DNA of 24,974 nt from a virus. This document shows, piece after piece, positions 1,046 to 23,548 of this stretch (its first letter is position 1; each line of letters begins with the position of its first letter). Under the pieces are notes generated by a model. It had not been told where the DNA came from. It ran no database searches and saw only the letters and a list, made by a program, of their open reading frames with translations. The DNA lies in IMG/VR virus record IMGVR_UViG_3300025168_000621, positions 1 to 24,974 of that record; one strand, given 5' to 3'. A program made the position numbers and the translations under genes.

Positions 1046-1411
1046 TTATTTACTGCTTTCAGATATATCACATCCCACTGAAAACAACTCCATAGCTGAC
1101 GTGCTATTGTTTTTTAGTTCAACTAAGCCAAAATAACCCCTTACAGAAGACATGTTTACAACATTATTTTTGCTAAAGAATATAAAACTATCTGCTGTTG
1201 GTAGTGTTAAATCTATTTCACAATTAACCTTAATCGCGGTGGTAGTACTACTATTTTCTATAGTTTCAATATCACCTATTAACACTTTATCGCTAGATAC
1301 GTTAAACCCACTACTTTCCGTTGGATTAGTGTAGTAAACAGTATCACCAACCCTCATTGATATATTATTGTTTAAGCTAGTTGTGTTAAAAGTTAAATCT
1401 ATGTAAGCCAT
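1046..1411 (-). CDS. Small beta-rich virion protein, 121 aa
   Basis: The protein is almost entirely predicted beta-strand, with no signal peptide or membrane segment. Residues 19-81 form a compact module: RVGDTVYYTN, then a variable stretch, then CEIDLTLPTADSFIFFSKN. This module resembles stretches in the 487-aa and 223-aa proteins of this window. The C-terminal part (residues 85-121) carries GYFGLVELKNNST and ends in ISESSK. I associate this pattern with small structural proteins of marine phages but cannot name a family. It lies 16 bp downstream of the 487-aa gene, in the tail module, so a tail-tip or tail accessory part is the likeliest role. The start is the first Met, giving MAYIDLTF, behind an A-rich leader. 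Confidence 0.6.
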   Translation of the reverse strand: MAYIDLTFNTTSLNNNISMRVGDTVYYTNPTESSGFNVSSDKVLIGDIETIENSSTTTAIKVNCEIDLTLPTADSFIFFSKNNVVNMSSVRGYFGLVELKNNSTSAMELFSVGCDISESSK

Positions 1412-1427
1412 TATTTTTGTTTTATGA

Positions 1428-2891
1428 TTAGTATGTTAATAGTTCATTTAAATCTAGTGCCATAGTAACGTCTTCAATACCCCACCTGTTTATAGTAATA
1501 GTTCCTTCTATTAGCAAAGTTGTTTCGCCAATAGTAGATGCCGATAAAGCATTTATATTTACATCAGTTCCACCATTTAAACTTGCCATTGAATTTGTCC
1601 AATGAGAAGTTATACCTTTATTAGCAGCAAGTTCTGGAGTAATAGTATTTTGAAAAACAGGTATAGTAAAACTAGTAAAGCTTTTACCACCTGAACCTGT
1701 TAAAAGGTACTTAAAGTTAATAATTTCTTTAATCCTAGAAAACCTTGTTGTTTGCTCGCTAGTAAAACCAGCTATGCCAGCATATCTTTTTTCATGATAA
1801 TGAGCTGTACCTGAGCCAAGCCCTGTTGCAACACCGTCAAATTGCGTTATAGTATAATTAGCACTTCCTTCTGCTTTTAAAGTTAAAATTGGATCTCTAT
1901 ATTGACAAAGAGTATATGTTGGAGTGGTTACTGGTATGCTCGAGGCCAACCCACTACTAGTTTCTATATTTATATTGTATTTTCTAGATCTCTTAAATAC
2001 AACCCGAGCATTATCAGCAGCGGTTAAGTTTGGTGAAATAGTACACTCGTTAGTATTATTACCATTTGGATTTAATAATGTAACCACAGTAGATGCTGTT
2101 TCATCAGAAGATGAAGTTAGCATTATCTTGTCTCCTACTTTAACGCCAGTTAGGTCGTCAAAAATAACAGTCGCTGAACCACCACTGGCCGCCATGGTTC
2201 CATTCACGGCTGTTCCTTTAGAAATAATACTTGGAAAAAATTGTGTAAAAGAATAAACACCACTCTTATCAATGGTAAAACTATAAGAGTCGGTAATTTC
2301 GTTAGTTAAAGAATCAGTTAAAATAGAATCACCGTTATCGTCTTTTATTGTTAAAGTAGCTGTGGCGCCAGATGAACCAATTACTTTTATTTCTCTTGTC
2401 TCCCCACCTTTATTTAATATATAGCTACCAAAAGTTAAGCTGGTTATGAAGTTTAAAGAGCCACCTATTCTTGTTGGCACACTGGAGTCTTTATACACTA
2501 AACTAGCCACCGCGTTGTCTTGCTTGTTCACAGATACAGTGTTATAATATATCACATCAAATAAGTAAGAATACACATACTTGCGGTCATCATTGTAGTC
2601 AGCTGTTTTTTCCTCAATATCTTTTGGTATTAATTTTATATTATACTTAGAACTTAAAGAAGGTGCTTGTATAAACTCTCTTGCAGTCGCGTGACTTGCT
2701 TCAATTTTTATTGTAGCTATTGTAATTCTACCTTTTGAAGAAGTAGATCCTTTTATATTATAAATTTTTTGCTCTCCTTTAAAACCACCGTATTTCGTTG
2801 TTGTTGTTAGTCTATATGGGGCTTTTCCGGTGAGTGTTACTATACCGGAGTTTTTGTTGATACTATCTACTATGTTAATTGAAAAGTTCAT
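1428..2891 (-). CDS. Beta-rich tail-associated protein, 487 aa
   Basis: There is no recognisable enzyme motif. The sequence is rich in Thr, Ser, Gly and Val and is predicted to be mostly beta-strand, typical of tail fibres, tail tips and baseplate-like parts. Residues 150-220 look like an immunoglobulin-like repeat (IGSSGATATLTIKDDNGD). Residues 238-301 contain the module GVKVGDKIMLTS ... TISPNLTAADNARVVFKRS, which resembles modules in neighbouring proteins. The C-terminal 150 residues include HYHEKRYAGIAGF and end in VTMALDLNELLTY. The gene follows the 2315-aa gene by 12 bp and precedes the 121-aa gene by 16 bp, so it is co-transcribed with tail genes. A tail-tip or receptor-contact role is inferred from position and composition only. 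Confidence 0.6.
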   Translation of the reverse strand: MNFSINIVDSINKNSGIVTLTGKAPYRLTTTTKYGGFKGEQKIYNIKGSTSSKGRITIATIKIEASHATAREFIQAPSLSSKYNIKLIPKDIEEKTADYNDDRKYVYSYLFDVIYYNTVSVNKQDNAVASLVYKDSSVPTRIGGSLNFITSLTFGSYILNKGGETREIKVIGSSGATATLTIKDDNGDSILTDSLTNEITDSYSFTIDKSGVYSFTQFFPSIISKGTAVNGTMAASGGSATVIFDDLTGVKVGDKIMLTSSSDETASTVVTLLNPNGNNTNECTISPNLTAADNARVVFKRSRKYNINIETSSGLASSIPVTTPTYTLCQYRDPILTLKAEGSANYTITQFDGVATGLGSGTAHYHEKRYAGIAGFTSEQTTRFSRIKEIINFKYLLTGSGGKSFTSFTIPVFQNTITPELAANKGITSHWTNSMASLNGGTDVNINALSASTIGETTLLIEGTITINRWGIEDVTMALDLNELLTY

Positions 2892-2903: not shown

Positions 2904-5900
2904 TTATAAATATACACTTGAAATAATAGATGCGTTACCAATTCCTTGAACAGTAAATTCACCTGTGTCTAAGTTTTCTAGAGTTGTTGCAACTCCGTTT
3001 ATCTTATTATACCACTTACCTTCCTTTTCTATAAACTCAGGTACAGCGCCGCTATGCTTGTCTGTTTCAAACGAATTAACATACCATCCAAGTTTGTTTT
3101 CTAGATTATAATATTCGTTAGTATCACTAGTATTTTTATTTACTTTAGATTGAGAGCCCTCATAATTAACGGAGTTAAATGATTTTATAACACCAGGAGC
3201 ATCATTGAATAAAACAGATATTGACGACTCGTAACTAGAGTTAGTAGTAGGATCAACACCATAAAAACAATTATAAAGGCTATTAGTATAATGCTGGTAA
3301 ACACTATTGCCCTTAGCTGTTATATACGTTCCACTAACAGAGCCACCGGCTTCAGGTAAAAACGTTTTAAAACTAACCCAGCCTTTAGACTCTTCACTAA
3401 AAGATACTGTGGTATCATATGTTGAATCTGGATTAGTTTTAGTTAGTGTTAAGTTATATTCTCCACTAACTACGTCAAAGGTACCTAGAGCTTTATCTGT
3501 TAGTTTTAAATTATCTCTAAACCAAGTTTTCATACCAACGTTTGATATCGGTGTTAAACCATCTTGTGACAATCTTAAAACAGCTCCTCTTTGTTTGTCA
3601 GTAAAATACATTCTGTACTGATCAAACGCTAAAGATTCAGGATTTTTAGATATACCGTAGTCACCAACGAATGGCATAGCGGTTCCTAAAACTCTGTCTG
3701 TGGCTGTTAATTGAGGGTTTCCATCAGCGTTAAATAGCGCGTCTTTACTAGATAGTACTTTTAATACCTTATCTTCAGTTAGCACAATAACATCAGTATC
3801 TCTAGTTTTTAATCTTTGAATAGAACCATAAGATGGGTTCAGGTCCTTAGTAATTTTTTGAGACATGTTAAATTCATTCAAATCGTTTACTTGAGATGTT
3901 GAGTTGTACAAGCCAGAGTATATCAATCCACTTGTTCTATCCTCTTGTCCATAACCTGAAAACGTTGTTGAAGCCTTAACACCATTACCTATTTGTGGTG
4001 CGTTAAAATCGTCTCTTATTCTATCTGATTCTACACCATTACCATAAGAGTAGCAATTTGACCAACCCAGATCTATAGGATATTTCCAAACATCTCTATC
4101 TATAGAATAATAACCTGTTGGTGGTCCTACAAATTCAACATCAAATATTTCACCATCAACATTAGCTGATACAAATTCATCAGCCGCCTGTAGTGCACCT
4201 GCTGAAGTTTGAAAATAAAATGGTGTACCCATTGAACTAGAAACTTTTATTCTTGCAGGACTAGTAGATACAACTTGTGTTATTATAACCCCATGGTCAA
4301 CACCAGTACCAATTATTTGCATTCCTTCTTTTAGATCCGCAATATTACTAGTACTTGTTACCTCCAACTCGTTCGTTATAATACCAACGGCAGGGTCCCA
4401 AGGATTTGCTCCACCATCAGGTGTTGATAATATAAAAGTAGGTTTAGCTTGCACTGTTCCGGTGTGTTTAATCACTGGACTATAGCTTGAGCCAAGCACT
4501 GTTTGTGTTGGGTCAGATGTAGTGCCAGTAACATCCTCACTACCTGCAATTTTTTTTGTTTTTTCAAAAAATCCAGTTACTTTAGATCTTGTTTTAGTTC
4601 CATTTTTGTGACTAAAAATTATTTCATCATTTATATATATACCATTTTTTTGCTCACCATGAAACTGAGCCGTAAGTGTATCAATAAGATCATCATTTAC
4701 GACTTGTATTATTGGATCACCAAATCCTAGTATATCATTACCGTTAACATCTAATGCGTCATCTGGATTAAAATCACTATTAAATAAAGATGGTCTACCT
4801 ATAGCATTACCAACTTTATTAGACGGTGTGTTAATACTATTACTACTTGCGGTATTTGGTAAAACAATTTCTTCTATAGTTAAATGGTTTACTCTTTCAA
4901 TAGACACCATGCTGCCAATAGGTGAAAAATCATATATGTTATTTTCATTCAAAGTCAAAGGCATAGAGCTTGATCCTTCGTAGTATATATCTAGATCTAC
5001 ATCTTTTTTAGGTTCTGTTTCTAATATAGCAGGATCACTATCAAATATCAATTGTGTACCTCCAAAACTTTGTTTTCTCACTATTTCTATTTGAAGTTGA
5101 TGATCAGTATTTGCCGCACCATTAGTGTTAAGACCGTCTCTACCATCATGCCGTGCAACTCCTCTTGGATCAAATGAGCTTACGTCAATTCCTTCGTTTA
5201 ATAGTTGATTAGCAGCTGGATCATATTTTCTAAAATTAAGTGTAAAACCAACTCTTGTATTTGATGGTGTGCTTGTAGCATTTATCTTTATACGTCCTTT
5301 TGGATTTGGACTTGTGGTTGACTCAAACACCATGTTATTACCTAGACCACCACCATTAGAAGGGTAGTCTTCAGTTTGTATAACTTTGTATATATTATCA
5401 GAGTCATTAGTAAATCTAAAAAATGTACCTGGTTTTCTCATTTCTAACATAAAAAATTGAGAGTCTTGAGGTTGTATACTGTCATACTCAATGAAACCAA
5501 GGACAGATAAAGACATTTTACCTAAAGTTCCACTTGCGGGTGTAGTAGAGCCACCAAAACCATGAGCGTATGCTAAGTCTGATGATATAGAACCTATCTC
5601 TAGTCCTCTTGGGTAGTTTGGGTATTGATCATAAGAATTAGTATATATATCCCAAGTGAGCTGTGGACTTCCTCCACTTCTTAACCCTGCTGGTTTAGCG
5701 GCATCTATAAACGGTCTACCAGGTAGATCGTTTATTCTTGACTGCCAAAACTCGGTTGTTGGAACTTTCCAGCAATAGTAACTAAAACCAGATTCTAAAT
5801 TTGAATTACCACCGCTAACATTGAAGGCTCCATAACCTGTTGCAGGATTGTCCGATGTGACATAAACATTAGTACCTGGTACAGAAAGGCGCGCGTTATC

Positions 5901-8900: not shown

Positions 8901-9851
8901 CCAACCATCAAGAGGCTCGTTATCACTGTTAGCTGTTAAATTTTCTGAAAAGTCACCGTTGTATACATATTCCTCTGGAACAAAGGCAGGTGTACCAGCT
9001 ATACACCTATCTATGTTTATTTTTTTAGGCTCACTTGATCCATCTGTCCAGATTAATAAATTATCAATAACGTTTATAGCTGTTACTTGTTTATCGTAGT
9101 TAAAGTTTAATACTTTTGGACTTGAAAATTTAACCCAAGAATTATTTGGATCCGTTGTGGTACTTGGATTCGCTAAGAGTATATCGGAGACAGCAGTAGC
9201 TAAATATCCAGTGTGAAGAGTTAAATAATTAAAACCATCATCTTTTGTAAATATATTTTTAATAATAGCGTTTGGAATCTTATTGACACCTTCATTATTA
9301 AATATCTCCATTTTCATGCCTACTTTTACTTTTTCAGCAATAGTAGTGTCTGTGATTTTAACTTCATACCAATTATCATCTTGTGGATCATAACCACCAA
9401 ACGATTCTTCATCTGTAAATGCAGTTGTGGATTTTGTTATTATAGTATGCTCGTCAATGATAACTGGTGTCGTTGTTCCATCAACGTTTTGTTGTATTAT
9501 GCTGTCTGTGAATATTGTTGTTCCAGTAGAATCAATTTCACTACCAGTTACGGTTTCAAGTGAAATAGCACCAACAGGTGGTGATGCCATGAAAAAATAT
9601 ATATTATCATTTTTTTCATCAGTAACGCTACCTATTGTTTTTGTGCTAAGCCCTGTTTGCGGGTTGGTTGTATTTGTAAAACTACCTATAGATTTGTTTC
9701 CTTTTATACCTTGAACTGTACCAGCTGCGTCTCCATCAGTTGTCCTAACTTGGATATTACTAGCATTTCTATATTCGCCGTTAGGAACAAGTCTTTCATC
9801 AAGATCTTTGTTCATCTTACCGCCCGTAAAAGTATGTTTTATTTCTGGCAT
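2904..9851 (-). CDS. Giant tail protein with stabilisation/nozzle-type features, 2315 aa
   Basis: This gene fills more than a quarter of the window. The N-terminus (FTGGKMNKDLDERLVPNGEY, then RNASNIQVR) is a pattern I associate with the large tail or head-completion proteins of marine podovirus-like and crAss-like phages. The stretch NVIDNLLIWTDGSSEPKKIN at residues 261-280 belongs to the same pattern. Residues 296-472 form a carbohydrate-binding-type insert. Around residues 2010-2150 there is propeller-like sequence (VLTEDKVLKVLSS, DQYRMYFTDKQRG, LRLSQDGLTPISNVGMKTW) similar in style to P22 gp10-like tail stabilisation proteins. The C-terminus contains FNDAPGVIKSFNSVNYEGSQ. The gene begins 4 bp after the second adaptor gene. 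Likely role: the tube or nozzle below the adaptor rings, with receptor-binding decorations. There is no peptidase or lysozyme motif that I can see. Confidence 0.75.
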   Translation of the reverse strand: MPEIKHTFTGGKMNKDLDERLVPNGEYRNASNIQVRTTDGDAAGTVQGIKGNKSIGSFTNTTNPQTGLSTKTIGSVTDEKNDNIYFFMASPPVGAISLETVTGSEIDSTGTTIFTDSIIQQNVDGTTTPVIIDEHTIITKSTTAFTDEESFGGYDPQDDNWYEVKITDTTIAEKVKVGMKMEIFNNEGVNKIPNAIIKNIFTKDDGFNYLTLHTGYLATAVSDILLANPSTTTDPNNSWVKFSSPKVLNFNYDKQVTAINVIDNLLIWTDGSSEPKKINIDRCIAGTPAFVPEEYVYNGDFSENLTANSDNEPLDGWATTGGVTFGGSAPSVSNSNATAYSLFPESPSLSLSGLQGSNTSLDASEDTGDITAAKNGVIIQSITGLTVGQTYVYSFDYVVILGTLTSDLDGSVDENATFVAPSPATNEGTSGTYTHTFVAATDQLDISFYGTSTTPASGGAVTAIIDNVSLLSSSTTIYSHTQLHVEDPTDVSSQAFIPVTDLEHYNSEGDKIDANLKEEHITVIRKAPRRAPTLILNSTDRGQGLSELNITNSPFITGDGGQNTADLSVNQTRIFSNNLFAFSVFRLNDVLDFTGEIVEYNSTGTTIVNTEVAKVVCKFISYIDPTNNENANESKELIKVEVLSFEGDGLNATVTDWNVKLRQQAPLFELKLGRFAYRYKYEDGEYSSFSPWSELAFLPGVFDYEAERGHNLGMKNNVREIIIKDFIPFGNRPLDVSSIDILYKPTDEPNCYVVKTVSRGVDAEWQLFTPTAATPDQKLSGQLNITSEAIHRVLPESQILRTWDNVPRYANAQEITGNRLLFGNYAQGYDVQLPVGLTQEVVGKNIQDIKSANKSIKSIRDYKWGMVFGDKYGRETPVFTSGYTTGFTDNYTTLTGDVSLNKTFSNTKNSFRIKQNWSNPINTNNTPPSWAEYVKYYVKETSNEYYNLVLNRWYLANEKGSTVWLSFQSTDRNKVDEETYLILKSKNGSAEQVENEARYRIIAIENNAPDFVKTKHNEIGSILALPGDDETGTTVWTTLNATITDISPINLIDPDFERLEIDKVRWDFLFGMGVTGTDDKPKSTRSKLSMRVRGMDATEHKKYSKWNEITNYKSEAGGNTAGFFHIYFAEKFGSDADMYARFIADSTLDYPAAGTDTVTGLTYHFEFKEEIIENKPEFDGRFFVKVEADTALEDNVLLTSEVDQVFTNIATTKISYIESKSKNTASSGNHAAEEWAFGEANGWWYNKFDIVNTWTSLNNGGSPAWNGEQDPNPPYQSSQAGAQTYNGPINVDWANESLVNGCANFSKHSKKKTGNFNDNARLSVPGTNVYVTSDNPATGYGAFNVSGGNSNLESGFSYYCWKVPTTEFWQSRINDLPGRPFIDAAKPAGLRSGGSPQLTWDIYTNSYDQYPNYPRGLEIGSISSDLAYAHGFGGSTTPASGTLGKMSLSVLGFIEYDSIQPQDSQFFMLEMRKPGTFFRFTNDSDNIYKVIQTEDYPSNGGGLGNNMVFESTTSPNPKGRIKINATSTPSNTRVGFTLNFRKYDPAANQLLNEGIDVSSFDPRGVARHDGRDGLNTNGAANTDHQLQIEIVRKQSFGGTQLIFDSDPAILETEPKKDVDLDIYYEGSSSMPLTLNENNIYDFSPIGSMVSIERVNHLTIEEIVLPNTASSNSINTPSNKVGNAIGRPSLFNSDFNPDDALDVNGNDILGFGDPIIQVVNDDLIDTLTAQFHGEQKNGIYINDEIIFSHKNGTKTRSKVTGFFEKTKKIAGSEDVTGTTSDPTQTVLGSSYSPVIKHTGTVQAKPTFILSTPDGGANPWDPAVGIITNELEVTSTSNIADLKEGMQIIGTGVDHGVIITQVVSTSPARIKVSSSMGTPFYFQTSAGALQAADEFVSANVDGEIFDVEFVGPPTGYYSIDRDVWKYPIDLGWSNCYSYGNGVESDRIRDDFNAPQIGNGVKASTTFSGYGQEDRTSGLIYSGLYNSTSQVNDLNEFNMSQKITKDLNPSYGSIQRLKTRDTDVIVLTEDKVLKVLSSKDALFNADGNPQLTATDRVLGTAMPFVGDYGISKNPESLAFDQYRMYFTDKQRGAVLRLSQDGLTPISNVGMKTWFRDNLKLTDKALGTFDVVSGEYNLTLTKTNPDSTYDTTVSFSEESKGWVSFKTFLPEAGGSVSGTYITAKGNSVYQHYTNSLYNCFYGVDPTTNSSYESSISVLFNDAPGVIKSFNSVNYEGSQSKVNKNTSDTNEYYNLENKLGWYVNSFETDKHSGAVPEFIEKEGKWYNKINGVATTLENLDTGEFTVQGIGNASIISSVYL
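8436..8966 (-). other. Carbohydrate-binding-module-like insert within the 2315-aa protein
   Basis: Residues 296-472 of the giant tail protein have the outline of a CBM4/9-type (galactose-binding-like) jelly roll. It opens with YNGDFSE, followed by DGWATTGGV, then ITGLTVGQTYVYSFDYV in the middle, then QLDISFYGTS and a closing AIIDNVSLL. The 'NGDF ... GW ... GQTYxxSFD ... IDNVSL' order is typical of that fold. It interrupts a region that otherwise continues the conserved tail sequence, directly after the TDGSSEPKKINI motif. It probably binds host-surface or extracellular polysaccharide; the ligand cannot be read from sequence. Confidence 0.6.
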
Positions 9852-9855
9852 GATA

Positions 9856-10743
9856 TTACTTTATTGGTTTACTTTGACCTTTTAAAACTTGAGTAAATTC
9901 TTCTATCTTAATATTAGATAATCTAATCTTTGCTTTTCTAGTTTCTGCAAATCTTTCTCGTTTGTATCTTTGAACTACGAACTCCGGCATATTAGATCTT
10001 GTGGATAAAACAGCGTAAGCCACATGTTTATAAACAGCTTCTTCGCAAAACTTATGAACAACCATTTCTGAGTCTGTACCTAATCCATCGCTTATGTATT
10101 TTAAAATCACTGTTTGACCAGCTAGCGATGAACCAAAATGTATATAACCTCTGTGGTAATCTATAAAAAAAGTACCATTAGCTTGAGCGTGCTGAGGATC
10201 TAGTCCATATCTTCTACCTCTATTATCTATCTCTACATCTGTTGAGTCATCCGAATACTCGTTTGTTTCTGTTTGATCTTGATGATTACTTAACGTGTTA
10301 CTGGGTGATTGCTCTTTAAGATTGTCTAAAGCACCATCATTATCTGCGTCTTTAAATTGATAGACACCATCTGTGTCTTGAGTTATAGCAAATGGGTTTG
10401 ACGTCTTACCTGTTGGATACAGTACTCTTTCTATACCATTAGAATCACTTCTAACTAGCTTGACATAGTTAACGTAATCTTGAGGTAATACCATTTTTAA
10501 AGTATTAGGCACTTCTATCTCTTGAGACTTGATAGAACGAAATACATCATATGAAAGTTCTTGCATAGCGCGCATAGCGTGAAACTGTACGTCTGTTCTA
10601 TTAACTTTTGGTATTATCTTATCTTCTCCAACATAAGCAAACATAAAGGCGCTTATAATATTATCTAAAGAAACAAATTGGTATGTTCCAAAATCTGTTC
10701 CAGTGTAATATGAGTTTTGAGTTTGATTATCTAGTAATCCCAT
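9856..10743 (-). CDS. Head-to-tail adaptor/ring-like protein 2, 295 aa
   Basis: The N-terminal half contains FVSLDNIISAFMFAYVGED, followed by IIPKVNRTDVQFHAMRAMQE, then VPNTLKMVLPQDYVNYVKL. I associate this pattern with the second ring or adaptor protein of marine flavobacterial and crAss-like podoviruses. Residues 132-140 are DADNDGALD, an EF-hand-like calcium loop inside an acidic linker (about 120-175). The C-terminal part is helical and basic (YKRERFAETRKAKIRL). It lies 2 bp after the 234-aa adaptor gene and 4 bp before the giant tail gene, consistent with assembly between portal and tail. The start (MGLLDNQTQ) is the first Met in frame. The adaptor role is inferred from context and pattern and not from a solved homologue. 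Confidence 0.65.
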   Translation of the reverse strand: MGLLDNQTQNSYYTGTDFGTYQFVSLDNIISAFMFAYVGEDKIIPKVNRTDVQFHAMRAMQELSYDVFRSIKSQEIEVPNTLKMVLPQDYVNYVKLVRSDSNGIERVLYPTGKTSNPFAITQDTDGVYQFKDADNDGALDNLKEQSPSNTLSNHQDQTETNEYSDDSTDVEIDNRGRRYGLDPQHAQANGTFFIDYHRGYIHFGSSLAGQTVILKYISDGLGTDSEMVVHKFCEEAVYKHVAYAVLSTRSNMPEFVVQRYKRERFAETRKAKIRLSNIKIEEFTQVLKGQSKPIK

Positions 10744-12488: not shown

Positions 12489-13976
12489 CTACTTCATTAA
12501 CATAAAGTTGTTAGCACCTTGAGTAACTAAACATCTTTCTGATAACATGTGTATTTGCATTGCATCTAAAGCTGATGTAGCAGCACCAACAGAACCAGTA
12601 ACCCAAGTTTTCATTCTTCGGTCATCAGTTTGTGAAGCTCTATATCTAACGTGTAAAAATGGTCTCTTTAAGTTTTTACCTAAAGCTTGATCATACACTG
12701 AAGATGTTCCAGCGGGTACAATAACACCTCTGATAGCAGCACTAGTAGCAGCAGAATTAATACCACCACGAGTAGCTTTATCATTTAAGTATCTCATATC
12801 AGATTTGTAGAAGTCATAAGAACCTCTTCTAAATCCTGAGAAACCTAAATTTAATGCCATATCTTCATCGTTGTCGAATACTCCATAAGAAGTACCTCCA
12901 GCTCCGTAAGAATTCATTGAAGCAAGCATGTCGTCTATTGCAAGAGCAGTTGCTCTATTTACAAACATCATGTTTTCTTCAATAGCACCTTGGTTATCAA
13001 ACTCAGCTAAGATAGCATCAAATTCAGCTAAATCAGTAGCAGCGTTAACACCACTAATACCAGAAGTAACATTACCTCTAGATTCGATAGCAGCGAATAA
13101 ACCTTCAGTACCAGCATTAACGCCGGCATCAGCAGCACCTCTAATTTGCTTATCAGCAAAACCAATAAGAGATTCATCAGCCGCTTTATCAGCTTCTAGC
13201 ATTGTCATCTCTAAGTAATCATTAAATCTAGCTCTAGTGTCACCTTCTGCCTTCAAGTACCATAAGTAACCGTTTTGCCCTGATTCACCAGCAACTTCAA
13301 CCCAACCAATTTGAGACGCATCAGATCCTGAGATCTCATAGTAGTCTTTCATTATGATCGGCTTGTTAGTAAATGATTTAAAAGTAGGCTGTAAAGCTGT
13401 TCTTCTTTCAGAATTAAACGTACCTGTATTATCAGAGTAAGATTGTCCTTTACCGTACTCAGAACCAATAACTAATAAAGTTGCTCCTTGAGAAGTTATA
13501 GCATGACCACTTAAAACGGCCTCATCATAAGCCTCTAAAGATACAACAGCTGATTCTGGAGTTTCTACTACTAAACATTTTGAAACTTTTCCAGCACTAG
13601 CTAAAAGTACTATATCGTTTACTCTAATACCGTGAGTAGTAGTTAGCGTGTTACCATCAATATCTTTTTCTACTTCAAAAGTACCGTTAGTGTCACCTGC
13701 TAAAACCACTGTACCTTTGTAAGATAAATGTAGTCTTGATTGTTCAGACCAAATGACCTGATCTGCGGTCATAGCCTCTTCAGCACCTACTTGAGCAAGA
13801 AAACCTGAAATTGTTCTGTTACCGAAAACTTCAGCCTCTTTCTCCATTAGGTCTGGTAAATATTGTTGAGCCCAACCAGCCGTAGCTGAACTCGTAAAAT
13901 CGATGTAATTCGAAGCTAATGTTTGTTGCTGTGGAGCAACTACACTATTCAAACTACCTCCTGCAGTAATTGCCAT
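12489..13976 (-). CDS. Major capsid protein
   Basis: The 495-residue protein follows the portal and scaffold-like genes and is itself followed by a strong terminator, the standard position of a highly expressed capsid gene. The N-terminus, with SSATAGWAQQYLPDLMEKEA then VFGNRTISGFLAQVG, is a pattern I recognise from major capsid proteins of marine podovirus-like phages. The expected HK97 fold is known for this class but has no short diagnostic motif. Residues 98-175 look like an inserted beta-module (GIRVNDIVLL ... GATLLVIGSE). The C-terminal region includes KRPFLHVRYRASQTDDRRMK and ends in MLSERCLVTQGANNFMLMK. The start MAITAGGS lies behind AAAAAAAATATATT, an A-rich leader typical of strong Bacteroidota starts. 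Confidence 0.85.
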   Translation of the reverse strand: MAITAGGSLNSVVAPQQQTLASNYIDFTSSATAGWAQQYLPDLMEKEAEVFGNRTISGFLAQVGAEEAMTADQVIWSEQSRLHLSYKGTVVLAGDTNGTFEVEKDIDGNTLTTTHGIRVNDIVLLASAGKVSKCLVVETPESAVVSLEAYDEAVLSGHAITSQGATLLVIGSEYGKGQSYSDNTGTFNSERRTALQPTFKSFTNKPIIMKDYYEISGSDASQIGWVEVAGESGQNGYLWYLKAEGDTRARFNDYLEMTMLEADKAADESLIGFADKQIRGAADAGVNAGTEGLFAAIESRGNVTSGISGVNAATDLAEFDAILAEFDNQGAIEENMMFVNRATALAIDDMLASMNSYGAGGTSYGVFDNDEDMALNLGFSGFRRGSYDFYKSDMRYLNDKATRGGINSAATSAAIRGVIVPAGTSSVYDQALGKNLKRPFLHVRYRASQTDDRRMKTWVTGSVGAATSALDAMQIHMLSERCLVTQGANNFMLMK

Positions 13977-17617: not shown

Positions 17618-19846
17618 TTATTTTTTTATTATTGTTGATTGAAATCCTTTGTTACTATACTTTGAAACATGAAGGTTTAATGGTTTTTTTTCTTTATTAG
17701 GGTTTGGTTTGTATAAATGTCTATTGCAAGCCATGATAGCCAAACCAGAACTAATAGTAGCATCGTGCTTTGTTCTTTTGTTTATATCAAACTTAGACCA
17801 GTCGTTTAGTGTTTCGTTGAAATAAGTATTACCAAAAGAACCGTCTTCTAGTAACCCAACGTGATCATTGATGTACATTTCAACAGCAGCAGCGTGCGCT
17901 TGCTTTATGTCTTCACTAGAGTTTGGTATTCCACCAACCTCTTTTTCTGCAACAGATAGTTTGTTCCAAACTTTATCTGGTCTATTCATACTAAACTTTC
18001 TATAACCTCTTCTTCTAAGATAATACAATAATCTAGGTTTATTATTTTCTGCTAGTATTGGCATACCGTAAAACACTAACGCCATTAATATATCTTCAAA
18101 AAATATCTCTGCTGTTTGTGGCCTAGCTATGTACTCTAAGAAAAAAGTATTAGCTGGAGCATCTTCCATAGAAAATTTAGTTAATCCATGTAAAGCACCT
18201 TTTGATCCTCTTCCGTCCACCGTCCCTGATATATCATATGAGTCACATCCAAATGCCCCAATATGTTCGTTACCTGGGTGTTTTACGCCATTCTTTAATA
18301 TAACGTTGTTTTGTAGTTTTTTTCCTGGTACCCAACTTATTTTAAACCTACCATTAGGATCTGGATTAAAAGTTACTTGAGTATCTTTAACTCCATTTGA
18401 CCATTGGAAATTACCAGTTGTTAAAACAGATGAGTTTTTGTTTCCCTCGTTGTAATCTATTTGTTCGTATATTTTAACTAGATTAAATAGACTATTACCG
18501 GTTTCATCTCTAAATGCGTGCTCCTCTGTTCTAGGAAATTGACGATAAAATTCATTCAAAGCGTCTTGATCGTCTTTTAGTCCTTCTGCTTCATTGCTCC
18601 AATGATCTATTACACCACAGTCTATTTCTATTCCGCTAGGATCAAATGTTTGTTTTTCTGGAGTATTGAAAACAGGTTGTCCGAATTCATCAATGAATCC
18701 TTCGTAATTCCATTCCATAGGAATAAACAAAGAATAAAGTCCCGACTTAGTTTGTCCATTTCTATTTCTTTTTGCGACATCTGAATTATCATATAAGTTC
18801 TTGAAATTATCCCCACCTTTATCTAATGCGTTACTTGTTGATCCCATCATGCACTTACCTATAATCCTACTACCTAATCGTAAGCAAGTTTTTGTTACTC
18901 TCCAATTGTTTTTTATATTATCAGGTCTCTCCCATTTACCACTTTCATCATGTACTAACAAAGAAAGCTTTTCACCATCATAACTATTATCACCTGTATT
19001 TTTCCAATCTATAGTAGTATCTAGTCCTTCCATGTCATCTTGCTCTTCTCGCTCCCTCATTTTTTTACGAGTAAACTTCTTCGCTGGTACTCTATATGCT
19101 AGTTCAGACTTTGGACGATCCATACCATCTTGTATTGGTTTGAAAAAGAATGGATAGTTTAAACTAATTGGTACAACTTTGTCGGTAAACATCTTCTTTG
19201 CATCAGCACCTGTTTTAGATAATATGCCAAATCTACTATCACCAGCTAATGTTGCTTGATGCACTGTTTCTGCTGAACTCATAAAAGAAAAACCAGAACG
19301 TCTATTTTTTAAGTAACACATTCCATAACTTCTATTATCTGCCTTACAAGCTTCCCAGAATATAAAGAACAATCTGTTTGCCTCTCTAAAATCAGGGGCA
19401 CCAACATCAATCTTACTCCATTGAAGGTACATATAGTGTGTACCTGTTATATAAGTTGGTTTACCATTGTTAACAAACCAAAACCCTTCTTCTCTTCTTT
19501 TAAACTCTTCGTCTATATACCCGTAGTGTTTTTCTTTAAAATCATCTGGATAATCTTGCCAATCAAATACAGTTTTAATTCTTTTAAAATCAGGGTTAAC
19601 AGGGAATTGTCTCCATTTTTGCTCTGATTGAATTTTACTACAAGAGTATATTTCTGTAGGTTGTTTAGGTAGTGCTATTTGAAAACCTTGTATTTCTAGT
19701 ACATCACCTACCATACCTGTTTTAGATATCACAACAATATCATTTTCTTTATTATAACCGTACTCCCATTTCTTAGACTTGTTAAGTCTTTTGACAGTGT
19801 TTGATTTTATAGGTTCTACAACCTTGTATAGTGATTGCTCGTACAT
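17618..19846 (-). CDS. terL: Terminase large subunit (packaging ATPase/nuclease)
   Basis: The 742-residue protein has both terminase domains. In the ATPase part, CYLKNRRSGFSFMSSAE (about 177-193) is an R-rich, non-classical Walker A. LSLLVHDESGKW (294-305) is Walker B with the catalytic acidic pair, and MGSTSNA (334-340) is the coupling motif. In the nuclease part, GAFGCDSYD (530-538) supplies the first metal-binding acidic residues, FFEDIL lies near 582-587, and KHDATISSGLA (693-703) supplies the last catalytic Asp. The enzyme pumps DNA into the prohead and cuts the concatemer. Its ATG overlaps the stop of the preceding small gene as TAATG, which suggests coupled translation. The following portal gene starts after 3 bp. 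Confidence 0.93.
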   Translation of the reverse strand: MYEQSLYKVVEPIKSNTVKRLNKSKKWEYGYNKENDIVVISKTGMVGDVLEIQGFQIALPKQPTEIYSCSKIQSEQKWRQFPVNPDFKRIKTVFDWQDYPDDFKEKHYGYIDEEFKRREEGFWFVNNGKPTYITGTHYMYLQWSKIDVGAPDFREANRLFFIFWEACKADNRSYGMCYLKNRRSGFSFMSSAETVHQATLAGDSRFGILSKTGADAKKMFTDKVVPISLNYPFFFKPIQDGMDRPKSELAYRVPAKKFTRKKMREREEQDDMEGLDTTIDWKNTGDNSYDGEKLSLLVHDESGKWERPDNIKNNWRVTKTCLRLGSRIIGKCMMGSTSNALDKGGDNFKNLYDNSDVAKRNRNGQTKSGLYSLFIPMEWNYEGFIDEFGQPVFNTPEKQTFDPSGIEIDCGVIDHWSNEAEGLKDDQDALNEFYRQFPRTEEHAFRDETGNSLFNLVKIYEQIDYNEGNKNSSVLTTGNFQWSNGVKDTQVTFNPDPNGRFKISWVPGKKLQNNVILKNGVKHPGNEHIGAFGCDSYDISGTVDGRGSKGALHGLTKFSMEDAPANTFFLEYIARPQTAEIFFEDILMALVFYGMPILAENNKPRLLYYLRRRGYRKFSMNRPDKVWNKLSVAEKEVGGIPNSSEDIKQAHAAAVEMYINDHVGLLEDGSFGNTYFNETLNDWSKFDINKRTKHDATISSGLAIMACNRHLYKPNPNKEKKPLNLHVSKYSNKGFQSTIIKK

Positions 19847-20118
19847 TATTTAGATCTTCCTTCTGCGAATCCCTTAAAAGTATTTTTCTTTTCTTCTACA
19901 GGCTTATCATCAAGCATGTTTTCTTCTTCGTGAATTCTGTTTAGTATTTCAAAAGCATCAAATATAGCTAACTTCTTTGTAGCTGCAGCATTCTTTAATC
20001 TATCTGCTGATATGTCTTCGTCTGAATCTACTATTTCCTCTCTGGCAACTTTAATTAGTTCTTCAACCGCTTTGTGCCCAGCTTGGATTATATTCTTCTT
20101 CGTTTCCTTGATATTCAT
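19846..20118 (-). CDS. Candidate terminase small subunit, 90 aa
   Basis: The protein is helical with conserved-looking KNIIQAGHKAVEELIKVARE (residues 8-27) and DRLKNAAATKKLAIFDAFEI (39-58), followed by an acidic/basic tail (EEENMLDDKPVEEKKNTFKG). Small subunits of terminases are short helical proteins encoded directly upstream of TerL, which is exactly this position (stop and start shared in TAATG). No helix-turn-helix motif is clear, so the assignment rests on place, size and pattern. Its start lies 56 bp inside the preceding 195-aa gene in a different frame. No other Met is available before residue 68, so the overlap appears genuine. An alternative is a non-TerS assembly factor. Confidence 0.45.
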   Translation of the reverse strand: MNIKETKKNIIQAGHKAVEELIKVAREEIVDSDEDISADRLKNAAATKKLAIFDAFEILNRIHEEENMLDDKPVEEKKNTFKGFAEGRSK

Positions 20119-20650
20119 ATTTAATTGTAATAAATTTATTTAAGACCCTATATAATCTTTGACCATCAATAACAAATTCATATTTACTTACTGGATCAAA
20201 ACCGACAAGTTCTTCTTTGTTGAAGGTTCCATCAGAGTACTTAATAATACCAACTAAAGGTTTTTCGTCTTCTATATTGAACTTGCTAATAGCCTTTAAT
20301 GGTTTAACAAAACTAAAACCAGGTGTTGCTTTCCAGTTTTTATCTTTATATAAATATAGTTGATTTTCTGAAACTAGGTATCTGTCGTCACTTAAGTAAG
20401 ATCTACTATTTCTTTCTTTACCTTTAATATCGTGCCATCTTCTAAAAACGTTATGATGTACTATTACCTCATCACCCACGTTAATAGGTGATGAAAATAA
20501 TAGCGGGGTAGCGATAACCCTCGCACGCCTGTTCACGAAATGGTGATTGTAAACTTCGGTGTTTAATATTAAGTCTTTGTTTCCAACTTTTTTATAATTA
20601 TTATATCTTTCACCTATTGGTGAAATTAAAAAGTCTTTATAAGCTTTCAT
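20063..20650 (-). CDS. GroES-like co-chaperonin with two tandem barrels, 195 aa
   Basis: Residues 8-102 follow the GroES outline: LISPIGERYNNYKK matches the opening 'RPLGDRVLVK' strand. ILNTEVYNHH plus RRARVIATP match the mobile-loop and 'GxVxAVG' region. INVGDEVIVHHNVFRRW matches 'VKVGDxVLFxxY', and DRYLVSENQLYLYK matches the closing 'eYLxLxExDILA'. Residues 110-180 repeat the plan more loosely: GFSFVKPL, PLVGIIKYS, ELVGFDPVSKYEFVIDG and RLYRVLNKFITIKYE. Phages use GroES substitutes (T4 gp31 is the known example) to fold capsid proteins with host GroEL. The gene lies in the pre-terminase block and overlaps its neighbours by 1 bp upstream and 56 bp downstream. Domain one is fairly clear; the second copy is inference. 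Confidence 0.65.
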   Translation of the reverse strand: MKAYKDFLISPIGERYNNYKKVGNKDLILNTEVYNHHFVNRRARVIATPLLFSSPINVGDEVIVHHNVFRRWHDIKGKERNSRSYLSDDRYLVSENQLYLYKDKNWKATPGFSFVKPLKAISKFNIEDEKPLVGIIKYSDGTFNKEELVGFDPVSKYEFVIDGQRLYRVLNKFITIKYEYQGNEEEYNPSWAQSG

Positions 20651-21165: not shown

Positions 21166-22149
21166 TTACGATATTCCGTATTTTGTTTTTAAGTGGTTTT
21201 CTATTAGAGTGCAATTAGCATCACTTAGTCCTTTGTTATATAGTATGCTTTCATATATTTTTCCTTTAAAACCCGCTGCTTTTGCATTAGTTCCCGCGGA
21301 TTTACCAATACGAAAGTTACTAGCATTATTAAGATAACTTACTCCAAATGGATTTGGGTACACGTGTGCTGATCCTACGTCTGACATATCTATAGTGTAT
21401 GCACTGTTAGTATCCCCATCTATATAAAAGGTACCAGCTGCCGTTCTATCTCCATCGTCTCTAAATCTCAATGTAAGTAATTGAACTCCTGTTGCAACAT
21501 CTATATCAGCATCATGGAATTGGAAAGGTCCTGTTCCGTCATACGTTCCAATATTCCATTGATCGTCGTTTGCTTCTACTTTCAAATTAATTCCAGTATA
21601 ATTACTACTACCAGCATCACCATTTGCTTTAAACGAAAAAAGTGTTTTATCAGTACTCGTAGAAGCTGTGTCACTATGAGGATCTACTACGAAAAAAAAA
21701 GTTATTCCAGCATAAGAGTTAACTAGACCGTTACTTAATGGACCCTCGTTTATACTAGCTGACGGCATTGTTGTAGACGCTAGGTTTCCATGATAAGTGC
21801 TACTTGCTTCAGTTACTTCAGTTTGTGTAAGTAAGCCATTAAAATCTCCATAACTCTTACCATTAGCACCACCTGTTGCAAACGTTAAAGTGCTACCAGT
21901 TTTAGTAAAACTAAGAGAAAAGTTTCCAAGTCTAGTGTTGTGAGTTACTTTATTGTTTATTGAATAAATGTCATCTCCATTATCTACTGACTCACCTGGT
22001 GTTGGGGTTCTCAATGTAGAAACATCACTCCAATCATACCACGCGATTATCCCTGTGTTTTCACTAGGATTTATATCTGAATTATGAATAACACCCTCTG
22101 GATCTTGTAGGTGCTCACCATATACTAATCCAGTTGACAATCCTAACAT
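21166..22149 (-). CDS. LamG/concanavalin A-like lectin-domain surface protein, 327 aa
   Basis: From about residue 33 to the end the protein has the outline of a LamG (ConA-like jelly roll) domain. It starts with IIAWYDWSDVSTLR, has YAGITFFFVVDPHSD and TLFSFKANGDAGSS in the middle and GTFYIDGDT later. It closes with the very typical GKIYESILYNKGLSDANCTL then IENHLKTKYGI. Such domains bind sugars or proteins at the cell surface and are common on phage fibres and head decorations. No catalytic glycosidase residues can be assigned. The start overlaps the stop of the 122-aa gene (TAATG). AGGAG upstream of this ATG belongs to the codons of that gene (Ile-Gly-Asp). Position among head-surface-type genes suggests a head fibre or appendage. 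Confidence 0.7.
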   Translation of the reverse strand: MLGLSTGLVYGEHLQDPEGVIHNSDINPSENTGIIAWYDWSDVSTLRTPTPGESVDNGDDIYSINNKVTHNTRLGNFSLSFTKTGSTLTFATGGANGKSYGDFNGLLTQTEVTEASSTYHGNLASTTMPSASINEGPLSNGLVNSYAGITFFFVVDPHSDTASTSTDKTLFSFKANGDAGSSNYTGINLKVEANDDQWNIGTYDGTGPFQFHDADIDVATGVQLLTLRFRDDGDRTAAGTFYIDGDTNSAYTIDMSDVGSAHVYPNPFGVSYLNNASNFRIGKSAGTNAKAAGFKGKIYESILYNKGLSDANCTLIENHLKTKYGIS

Positions 22150-22517
22150 TAGTCTCCTATATAAAGCATTATTGGTGTTGCGGCATTATTAGTTACCTTT
22201 GTCCACCTACCATATATTGTTATACCTTTTGGAAAAGTATTTCCATTGTCTACAACATCACCTCCAGCACCAGACTCTCCTTTATCAGGAGAAAGAACAG
22301 CATCATGAGCCGCGGTATCTGTTCCAGCATATTCTAATCCAGAAGTTATATCATTATCAGCAACTAAACCATTAGTGCTATTGAATATCGTATCTGCCAA
22401 CATTGTTATTGCTACAAATACTTTATTTGTTGGTGGAGTTATAGCTCCAGTAGTGTCACTAAAAACACTCCCCATCTGTCCAAATCCATATTCTACTGTG
22501 TTATGTTTATATGCCAT
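22149..22517 (-). CDS. Small virion surface protein, short paralogue, 122 aa
   Basis: The N-terminus (VEYGFGQMGSVFSDTTGAIT, residues 8-27, then PPTNKVFVAITMLAD) and C-terminus (NTFPKGITIYGRWTKV ... MLYIGD) match both ends of the 223-aa gene product two genes upstream. The match covers about 35 residues at each end. The middle (residues 45-85) is short and unrelated to that protein's insert. The 'FGQxGS ... IYGRW' framework is a pattern I associate with structural proteins of marine phages. It is probably a head decoration or fibre-base protein. It is preceded by an A-rich leader and shares its stop with the LamG start. Confidence 0.6.
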   Translation of the reverse strand: MAYKHNTVEYGFGQMGSVFSDTTGAITPPTNKVFVAITMLADTIFNSTNGLVADNDITSGLEYAGTDTAAHDAVLSPDKGESGAGGDVVDNGNTFPKGITIYGRWTKVTNNAATPIMLYIGD

Positions 22518-22532
22518 AGTTTATTTATTTAA

Positions 22533-22877
22533 TTATCTGCATGGTGTTTTTGCTCTCACAACACCATCAGTATCTACTTGTATGCTAAAATTTGTTCTTC
22601 CATCAGCCGTTACTTTATAGTGACCAGCTTCAAATTTATTATCAGAACGAGCTCTTTTTTTTAAATAAATTATATCACCTACACCTGGAACAGTAGATCC
22701 ACTATTATGATAAAATGTTTCACTCATTGATCCTGAATAGCCACAAGCAGATCTAGATTGCACTGGAGAAGATGTTACGGAGTTGTAACCTCTTGCAGTT
22801 ACAACTTCTTTTATTCTCTTCACTAGATGACCCTTTCTTCTACTTCCGGTTTGACCCGAACTATTACCTAATCCCAT
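22533..22877 (-). CDS. Small basic protein between the paralogues, 114 aa
   Basis: The N-terminal 30 residues are basic and Gly/Ser-rich (GNSSGQTGSRRKGHLVKRIK). The rest is beta-rich: TFYHNSGSTVPGVGDIIYLK, then KKRARSDNKFEAGHYKV, ending in GVVRAKTPCR. Two Cys residues (C45, C113) are not part of a visible metal site. The gene lies between two related surface-protein genes and starts in a TAATG overlap with the first. I do not know a family. A virion accessory role, possibly linking the flanking proteins to the capsid, is inferred from position only. Confidence 0.55.
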   Translation of the reverse strand: MGLGNSSGQTGSRRKGHLVKRIKEVVTARGYNSVTSSPVQSRSACGYSGSMSETFYHNSGSTVPGVGDIIYLKKRARSDNKFEAGHYKVTADGRTNFSIQVDTDGVVRAKTPCR

Positions 22878-23548
22878 TATTTACCAAAATAACAAATTAC
22901 TGCTTTGGCGTTTTCAGGTTTAAATGCTATCCATCTACCATATATTGTTAATCCAGCTGGAAAAGCAGTACCTGTAGCACTAGTACCTCCAGCGCCATGT
23001 GTTTCATCAAGAAAAACTAAAGCTTGATCACCAGTTGGAGTTATATCAGTGTCTAATTGAACCTTACTCACACCGTCGTAAGCAGTTACTTTAACACCTT
23101 GTTTACTAGGTCCTCTGTAAATTGGATGGGGTGTTTCAGCATCTATTACCATATCTGTATCCGCTTCACTAGCATCTCCGTTTACTAATAACACGTAATT
23201 ACCAACTTTAATTCTACCAGTTGGATCAGCTGGTGTGTCTAACGTAATGTCAGTTCCAGCAGTAACATCTGCATTTGGTATTTCACTTGACCATACACCA
23301 TTAAAGTTGAAGTAATTATTTCCAGAAGAGTCAACGTGTTCATCTGTTGATCCTGATATAGCAGGAAAGTTCGGTCCACCTTCATCTAGTTTTTCTGGCG
23401 TTAATATTGTTGGCGTGTGTGAATCAGTTATAAATTGAATTGCTACTATAACATGATCTTTTGGTGGTATTATAACGTTGTCAACATCGCAAAAAACACT
23501 ACCTAATTGTCCGAAGTTATATGCGACTCCTTGTGAATTTATTCCCAT
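22877..23548 (-). CDS. Virion surface protein, long paralogue with inserted beta-module, 223 aa
   Basis: Residues 9-42 (AYNFGQLGSVFCDVDNVIIP then PKDHVIVAIQFITDS) and 186-223 (GAGGTS then FPAGLTIYGRWIAF and ICYFGK) match the two ends of the 122-aa protein encoded two genes further on. Between them the long form carries a roughly 100-residue insert. Residues 98-182 of that insert resemble the beta-module seen in other proteins here (RIKVGNYVLLVNG ... DTDITPTGDQALVFLDE). It is probably a head decoration, head fibre or related surface part. It lies 8 bp after the holin gene and its stop overlaps the next start. Confidence 0.6.
   Translation of the reverse strand: MGINSQGVAYNFGQLGSVFCDVDNVIIPPKDHVIVAIQFITDSHTPTILTPEKLDEGGPNFPAISGSTDEHVDSSGNNYFNFNGVWSSEIPNADVTAGTDITLDTPADPTGRIKVGNYVLLVNGDASEADTDMVIDAETPHPIYRGPSKQGVKVTAYDGVSKVQLDTDITPTGDQALVFLDETHGAGGTSATGTAFPAGLTIYGRWIAFKPENAKAVICYFGK

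Follow-up and report, generated by a model that had tools for sequence, protein, structure and literature searches.

A probable beta-barrel family shared by the tail-slot, muzzle-like and, in relatives, ring-position proteins of a marine phage

Does a short motif that recurs among the virion proteins of one phage mark a single small barrel carried from protein to protein, or only a turn that many small barrels have in common? The question is raised by the window analyzed here, which is the entire 24,974-base stretch of virus record IMGVR_UViG_3300025168_000621. The original prediction placed a beta-module with a 'VGD-hydrophobic' motif at 1989-2180 on the minus strand and proposed that one barrel had spread through head, surface and tail proteins of the virion. 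This location corresponds to residues 238-301 of the 487-aa open reading frame at 1428-2891, as had been claimed, and the strings quoted for the various segments are at most two residues off the ranges given with them.

The structural genes of the window all lie on the minus strand, in the order terminase (phrog_6681, 5e-175), portal (phrog_6547, 1e-150), a 391-aa protein, major capsid protein (phrog_13704, 3e-100), p282, p234 (a weak SU10 adaptor match), p295 (phrog_13977, virion structural protein), p2315 (2315 aa; phrog_14478, 2e-121), p487 (487 aa), p121 and p239. Gene order and database matches are the basis for calling p295 the ring-position protein. The name muzzle-like for p2315 comes from gene order and a weak crAss_MUZ_C match (22.3 bits, E 1.8e-4) that does not reach the curated cut-off of 27. 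Capsid relatives with ~26-48% identity occur in 85 phage records (68 Flavobacterium, 15 Cellulophaga, 1 Maribacter and 1 unassigned), and the phage belongs to a marine group that is kin to the Cellulophaga and Flavobacterium podoviruses. Counts of relatives given below are drawn from the best 80 of at least 600 such capsid relatives.

The motif does recur in the window, as had been proposed, and is enriched there. A pattern written after the segments had been inspected (VG[DNM]x-hydrophobic or VNDx-hydrophobic) has 10 matches among the 23 proteins of the window, compared with 2.57 (sd 1.6) in shuffled proteins, and 0/500 shuffles reach 10. However, only five of these sites fall in the segments that had been named; the rest belong to the terminase, GroES-like p195, p114 and two additional places in p2315. 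When the window proteins are all compared with one another by BLASTP, no named segment matches another significantly, and p114 and p223 match each other at 0.016. Because small barrels of many unrelated kinds (SH3/KOW, GroES, OB) begin their first strand with a VGDxV turn, the likeness could have arisen without common descent. The terminase occurrence and a weak KOW4 match in the phi46:3 capsid (0.077) are consistent with convergence of this kind, as is GroES-like p195, which scores up to 43% with p487 profiles over alignments of only 10-13 columns (13 for the highest score). The matches among the slot, ring and muzzle copies described below span 37-65 columns, however, and those between ring and slot copies reach 1e-10, so we regard convergence as an unlikely account of them. 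Nor does a GroES-type or KOW identity for the module gain support, p195 having no match beyond the VGDxV turn. The p195 gene itself (20063-20650; phrog_13932, 4.8e-12) encodes a GroES-like co-chaperonin directly upstream of the terminase, where relatives have an annotated GroES, and it overlaps a 90-aa open reading frame on the same strand (19846-20118) by 56 bases.

In p487 the barrel module occupies residues 226-308 (1968-2216, minus strand). Gene order and homologues (L001, L002 and L123-L126) identify p487 (1428-2891, minus strand) as the window's version of a variable tail-slot protein. Such a protein, of 398-960 aa, lies between the muzzle-like and p121-like genes in 9/12 related regions from the best 80 of at least 600 capsid relatives; in two of the remaining regions a variable protein follows the p121-like gene, and in one none was recognized. 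For profile comparison, the homologue alignments of each window protein were cut into 336 overlapping slices, and each named segment was compared with those slices that did not come from its own protein. The p487 module profile ranks p2315 residues 161-250 first of 315 slices (72% with three rows, then 62% with seven), which bears out the predicted resemblance of p487 to p2315 near residue 173. An HMM of the p487 module finds, in one pass, copies in the slot proteins of four further records among the same best 80 of at least 600 (1e-5 to 3e-4), one of which has a second copy at 0.004-0.006, and one round of iteration adds slot-protein copies in three more records. The window protein has one copy, and those of relatives have one or two, perhaps three. 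In rounds 3-4, p295 homologues of other phages entered the search unprompted, at 1.3e-5 and 0.002 and then down to 3.6e-6. That ring proteins joined only at this late stage counts against a shared barrel. A tblastn search of 50,697 phage records with p487 and a ring insert gave no match.

The muzzle-like protein contains two candidate copies. The first, a 'VGM' form near its start (residues 160-250; 9102-9374, minus strand), is conserved in 22 aligned rows from the same best 80 of at least 600 and provides the top slice for both the p487 and the p121 profiles. The comparison also works in the opposite direction, where a profile of this copy ranks p487 slices first (83%) and p121 next (57%) of 223 slices. 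The second copy lies at residues ~1823-1905 (4137-4385, minus strand), with 'KEGMQI' at 1841, and is the best window slice for the profile of ring inserts described below. An HMM of the same inserts matches residues 1831-1864 with a domain i-E of 0.04 and a whole-protein E of 1.9. One relative (L111, 4333-7501) has a muzzle-like protein that is seemingly split over several open reading frames, one of which has a module match at 9e-5.

Ring-position proteins of relatives carry inserts at a loop that corresponds to p295 residues ~131-160 (10264-10353, minus strand), and the window's own p295 is without an insert there. Among 47 homologues from the best 80 of at least 600 capsid relatives, which were assigned to classes by hand, 25 lack an insert, 12 have a barrel-type insert of one or two modules and 10 have an insert of another type. 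All of the inserts are at about one site, and the barrel modules are usually a tandem pair. The p295 matches number 49; a 118-aa fragment (L040) was excluded from the tree, and a sequence that ends inside the insert region (L037) was excluded from the state counts. On this tree, which comes from a quick search with SH-aLRT as its only support, the insert states require nine changes where the minimum is three, and one insert of the other type (L080) is nested among paired barrels. The p295 loop is a putative domain-swap site in relatives, and the gain and loss of inserts there would be more in keeping with an exposed position that the protein can do without than with part of its structural core. 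The ten inserts of the other type (L039, L064, L079, L035, L014, L009, L021, L080, L041 and L066) occupy the same loop; some resemble carbohydrate-binding or jelly-roll domains by eye, and two (L009 and L039) have no Pfam match.

A second HMM was built from ring inserts only, without p487, and was used for a single search of 2,963 frames together with the window proteins. This HMM matches 11 of the 12 barrel-bearing rings. Eight of these supplied rows to the HMM and match by construction, whereas three (L055, L072 and L018) match independently at 1e-4 to 1e-3; the remaining ring (L016) was assigned to the barrel class from the motif alone. The same HMM matches the slot proteins of two records at 1e-10 to 4e-10, the split muzzle at 9e-5 and another muzzle at 4e-4, and its best match in reversed or shuffled databases is 0.28. 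Against the 336 window slices, the top nine hits of the ring-only profile are all in p2315, within residues 1761-1930 (94% at best) and 101-250 (74% at best). Among the window proteins, p487 itself is absent from the HMM matches at a domain E below 3, and direct comparison of the ring-only profile with the p487 module gives 1.4%. The link between ring and p487 therefore passes through p2315 and the slot proteins of relatives, and the two slot records matched by the ring-only HMM score 0.05-0.08 with the p487 HMM before iteration.

The slot, ring and muzzle copies are kin at the profile level, and the ring inserts are present or absent at a single site. Since a profile made from ring inserts alone finds slot proteins at 1e-10 as well as muzzle proteins, and has its best window match in p2315, we consider it likely that one family of accessory, six-stranded, I-domain-like barrels is common to the slot, muzzle and, in relatives, ring-position proteins. 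The proposal of one small barrel in head, surface and tail thus survives for p487, for two places in p2315 and for the ring-position protein of relatives, but no kinship was found for the capsid segment.

The first part of p121 (residues 1-90; 1142-1411, minus strand) is probably a further member of the barrel family, a placement that we make with moderate confidence. The p121 family profile ranks p2315 residues 161-250 first of 333 slices (75% with three rows, then 62% with 21 aligned), the same slice that p487 selects. A p121-like sequence is found in 18/22 virus records from the same best 80 of at least 600 and, at 2e-10 to 7e-5, in 5/5 annotated relatives. The muzzle-like protein of phi38:1 ends in such a sequence as its C-terminus, and phrog_18548 has matches in p121 as well as at the end of p2315. 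Because of this fusion and this double match, the best reading of p121 is as a muzzle C-terminus that has become detached. In one relative (L106, 925-1776) the p121 homologue is 284 aa long and is matched repeatedly by the p121 profile, which may reflect an internal duplication.

Two other named segments, in p223 and in the capsid, behave differently from these copies, and together with the p114 segment ('VGDII', 0.1 to 6.5%) they yield mainly short motif matches in the profile comparison. The p223 segment (residues 88-184; 22997-23287, minus strand) appears, from alignment with the paralogue p122 and relatives, as an insert of ~90 residues in the middle of the protein. The paralogues p122 (22149-22517) and p223 (22877-23548) have matching ends with 44% identity, and the insert is common to several relatives and absent from others. 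Its predicted likeness to the module is equivocal, scoring 29% over 64 columns with the combined profile but 1% with the ring-only profile.

The capsid segment (residues 85-178; 13443-13724, minus strand) scores 0.1 to 7.5% against the other module profiles, and the claim that it resembles them is not borne out. It is present in 5/5 annotated relatives that were aligned. In crAss001, a beta-barrel I-domain described as similar to that of P22 is placed in the E-loop of the capsid protein at residues 79-180 and is reported to strengthen the capsid wall (PMC10172136). The segment looks inherited with the capsid, because it occurs in all five annotated relatives and its place fits the crAss001 E-loop I-domain. 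It is most likely an inherited E-loop I-domain, its fold likeness being suggested by position and by the crAss001 description. Recent acquisition was rejected given its presence in all five annotated relatives and its low profile scores. For the capsid, p223, p121, p487 and p2315 segments all to derive from one barrel spread through head, surface and tail, as first proposed, is thus very unlikely. The similar motif order in p223, the position of the capsid segment where crAss001 has its P22-like I-domain, and the resemblance of the modelled p487 copy to the capsid I-domains of P22 and VP1 are compatible with such an origin. It is contradicted by the profile scores of the capsid (0.1-7.5%) and p223 (1-29%) segments, and by the occurrence of the capsid segment in 5/5 annotated flavophage relatives, of which 0/5 are matched by the combined module profile at E <=1. 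This lack of matches in annotated relatives also counts against the shared barrel family itself.

The p487 copy is predicted to be a six-stranded beta-barrel. AlphaFold2 gives a confident model for this copy only (residues 222-310; pLDDT 80.3, pTM 0.70), from an alignment with six slot and 12 ring copies that presupposes the ring-slot kinship. The prediction for full-length p487 from three rows has a mean pLDDT of 50.8, with block means of 26-43 for the module residues. Fragment and alignment both differed between the two predictions, and the gain in pLDDT therefore cannot be credited to the ring rows alone. The full-length model was too poor for its Foldseek list to be used as fold evidence. 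It resembles immunoglobulin and fibronectin chains, and a weak FlgD_ig match (0.085) occurs just ahead of the module at residues 167-209; both would suit an Ig-like or fibronectin-like domain, a common phage decoration. We give this identification almost no credence, since barrels head the structural matches obtained with the module itself and no Ig family is among the Pfam matches for 19 module rows.

Structural searches with the module model suggest a known kind of barrel. Foldseek finds no match below 0.001 in the PDB, where the Mystique tail tube comes closest (0.024). Its top match among viral models is to a protein of an uncultured virus (1.4e-3), followed by others that include P-HM1 E3SMS4 (4.9e-3) and cyanophage structural proteins. 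In VIA-align, which warns that a Z below 8 may reflect a common arrangement, only the Mystique tail tube exceeds this level (Z 8.3). P22 coat chains score 5.8-7.6, all below the safe level, the JBD30 baseplate 7.4, the VP1 capsid 7.2, lambda and Chi tail tips 6.2, E1 FCCH 6.0 (4p22_B) and F1-ATPase barrels 5.5-6.2. E1_FCCH is absent from the Pfam matches of the module at E up to 1. The Mystique match is to an insert (9n71_A, residues 102-188; 81 residues, rmsd 3.2) in an Acinetobacter phage, with a weak sequence match at the same place (E 0.35), but this phage is of another lineage and another tail type. The P22 coat I-domain (2m5s and 8i1v), for which Z values of 7.6 and 7.2 were obtained, is a six-stranded beta-barrel inserted in a virion protein, as is predicted for the module; the 7.2 is for 2m5s, which aligns over 77 residues with rmsd 2.4 and 26% identity. 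The P22 and crAss001 I-domains belong to capsid proteins, whereas the module family occurs in proteins of the tail slot, the muzzle and the ring position, and the sequences of the two show no kinship. Because it sits in a tail-slot protein and not in an HK97-fold capsid protein, the p487 module would work like a capsid I-domain without being one. The small six-stranded barrel of the JBD30 baseplate hub (8rk3_b; Z 7.4, 81 residues, rmsd 5.5), of which residues 477-568 appear to be the domain described, is reported to stabilize the baseplate (PMC11445458), but it is not known there as a repeated or mobile unit.

This barrel family seems to be without a name. Searches of Pfam, NCBIfam and PHROGs give no convincing named family for the module, the best scores being 0.0014 for PEGA (2/19 rows), 0.045 in NCBIfam and 0.0012 for phrog_6005. 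PDB sequence searches with p487, capsid, p2315 and p295 gave nothing useful, and one with the module profile gave nothing below 0.05. That one fold serves several virion functions in phages is an established idea (Cardarelli 2010, cited in PMC10684548). What the present analysis adds is an uncatalogued barrel that is traced to muzzle proteins and to ring-position proteins as well, the type of insert at the ring loop changing repeatedly on the tree. Literature searches, with passages of PMC10172136, PMC10684548, PMC9965877 and PMC11445458, turned up no account of such barrels inserted into the ring or muzzle proteins of these phages. A broad survey mentions RIFT-related domains in tail and neck proteins, and in it the phage proteins tied to recent domain shuffling are mostly endolysins and receptor-binding proteins (PMC10684548).

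If the shared family is real, then its barrels may lie on the outer surface of the neck and tail as exchangeable packing, spacer or adhesive units that could be gained and lost by recombination. By analogy, accessory barrels would most likely pack between neighbours or bind outside partners, and the copies here might bind host glycans or stabilize the particle in the manner of baseplate or capsid barrels. A bolder possibility, which we hold tentatively and consider less likely than not, is that duplication and recombination carry one and the same barrel lineage from protein to protein, among the tail-slot protein, the muzzle and the loop of the neck ring, with p121 and p223 as further destinations. 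The ring loop would then be a general docking site that swaps barrel pairs and other domains, producing a modular coat on the neck surface. Some of the differences in length among these proteins of marine phages may be due to barrel inserts, and the acquisition of exchangeable parts by virion surfaces becomes testable.

The combined module profile also matches PHM1_093 of the Prochlorococcus phage P-HM1, a T4-like cyanophage, at 3.7e-5. This protein, which has no assigned function and is encoded near a baseplate wedge gene, is probably the Foldseek match E3SMS4, judging from the phage and the length of 559 aa. In the same record (L127, 46129-50000) the gene annotated as baseplate wedge gp7 spans ~13 kb, and the module profile matches PHM1_093 only, not gp7.
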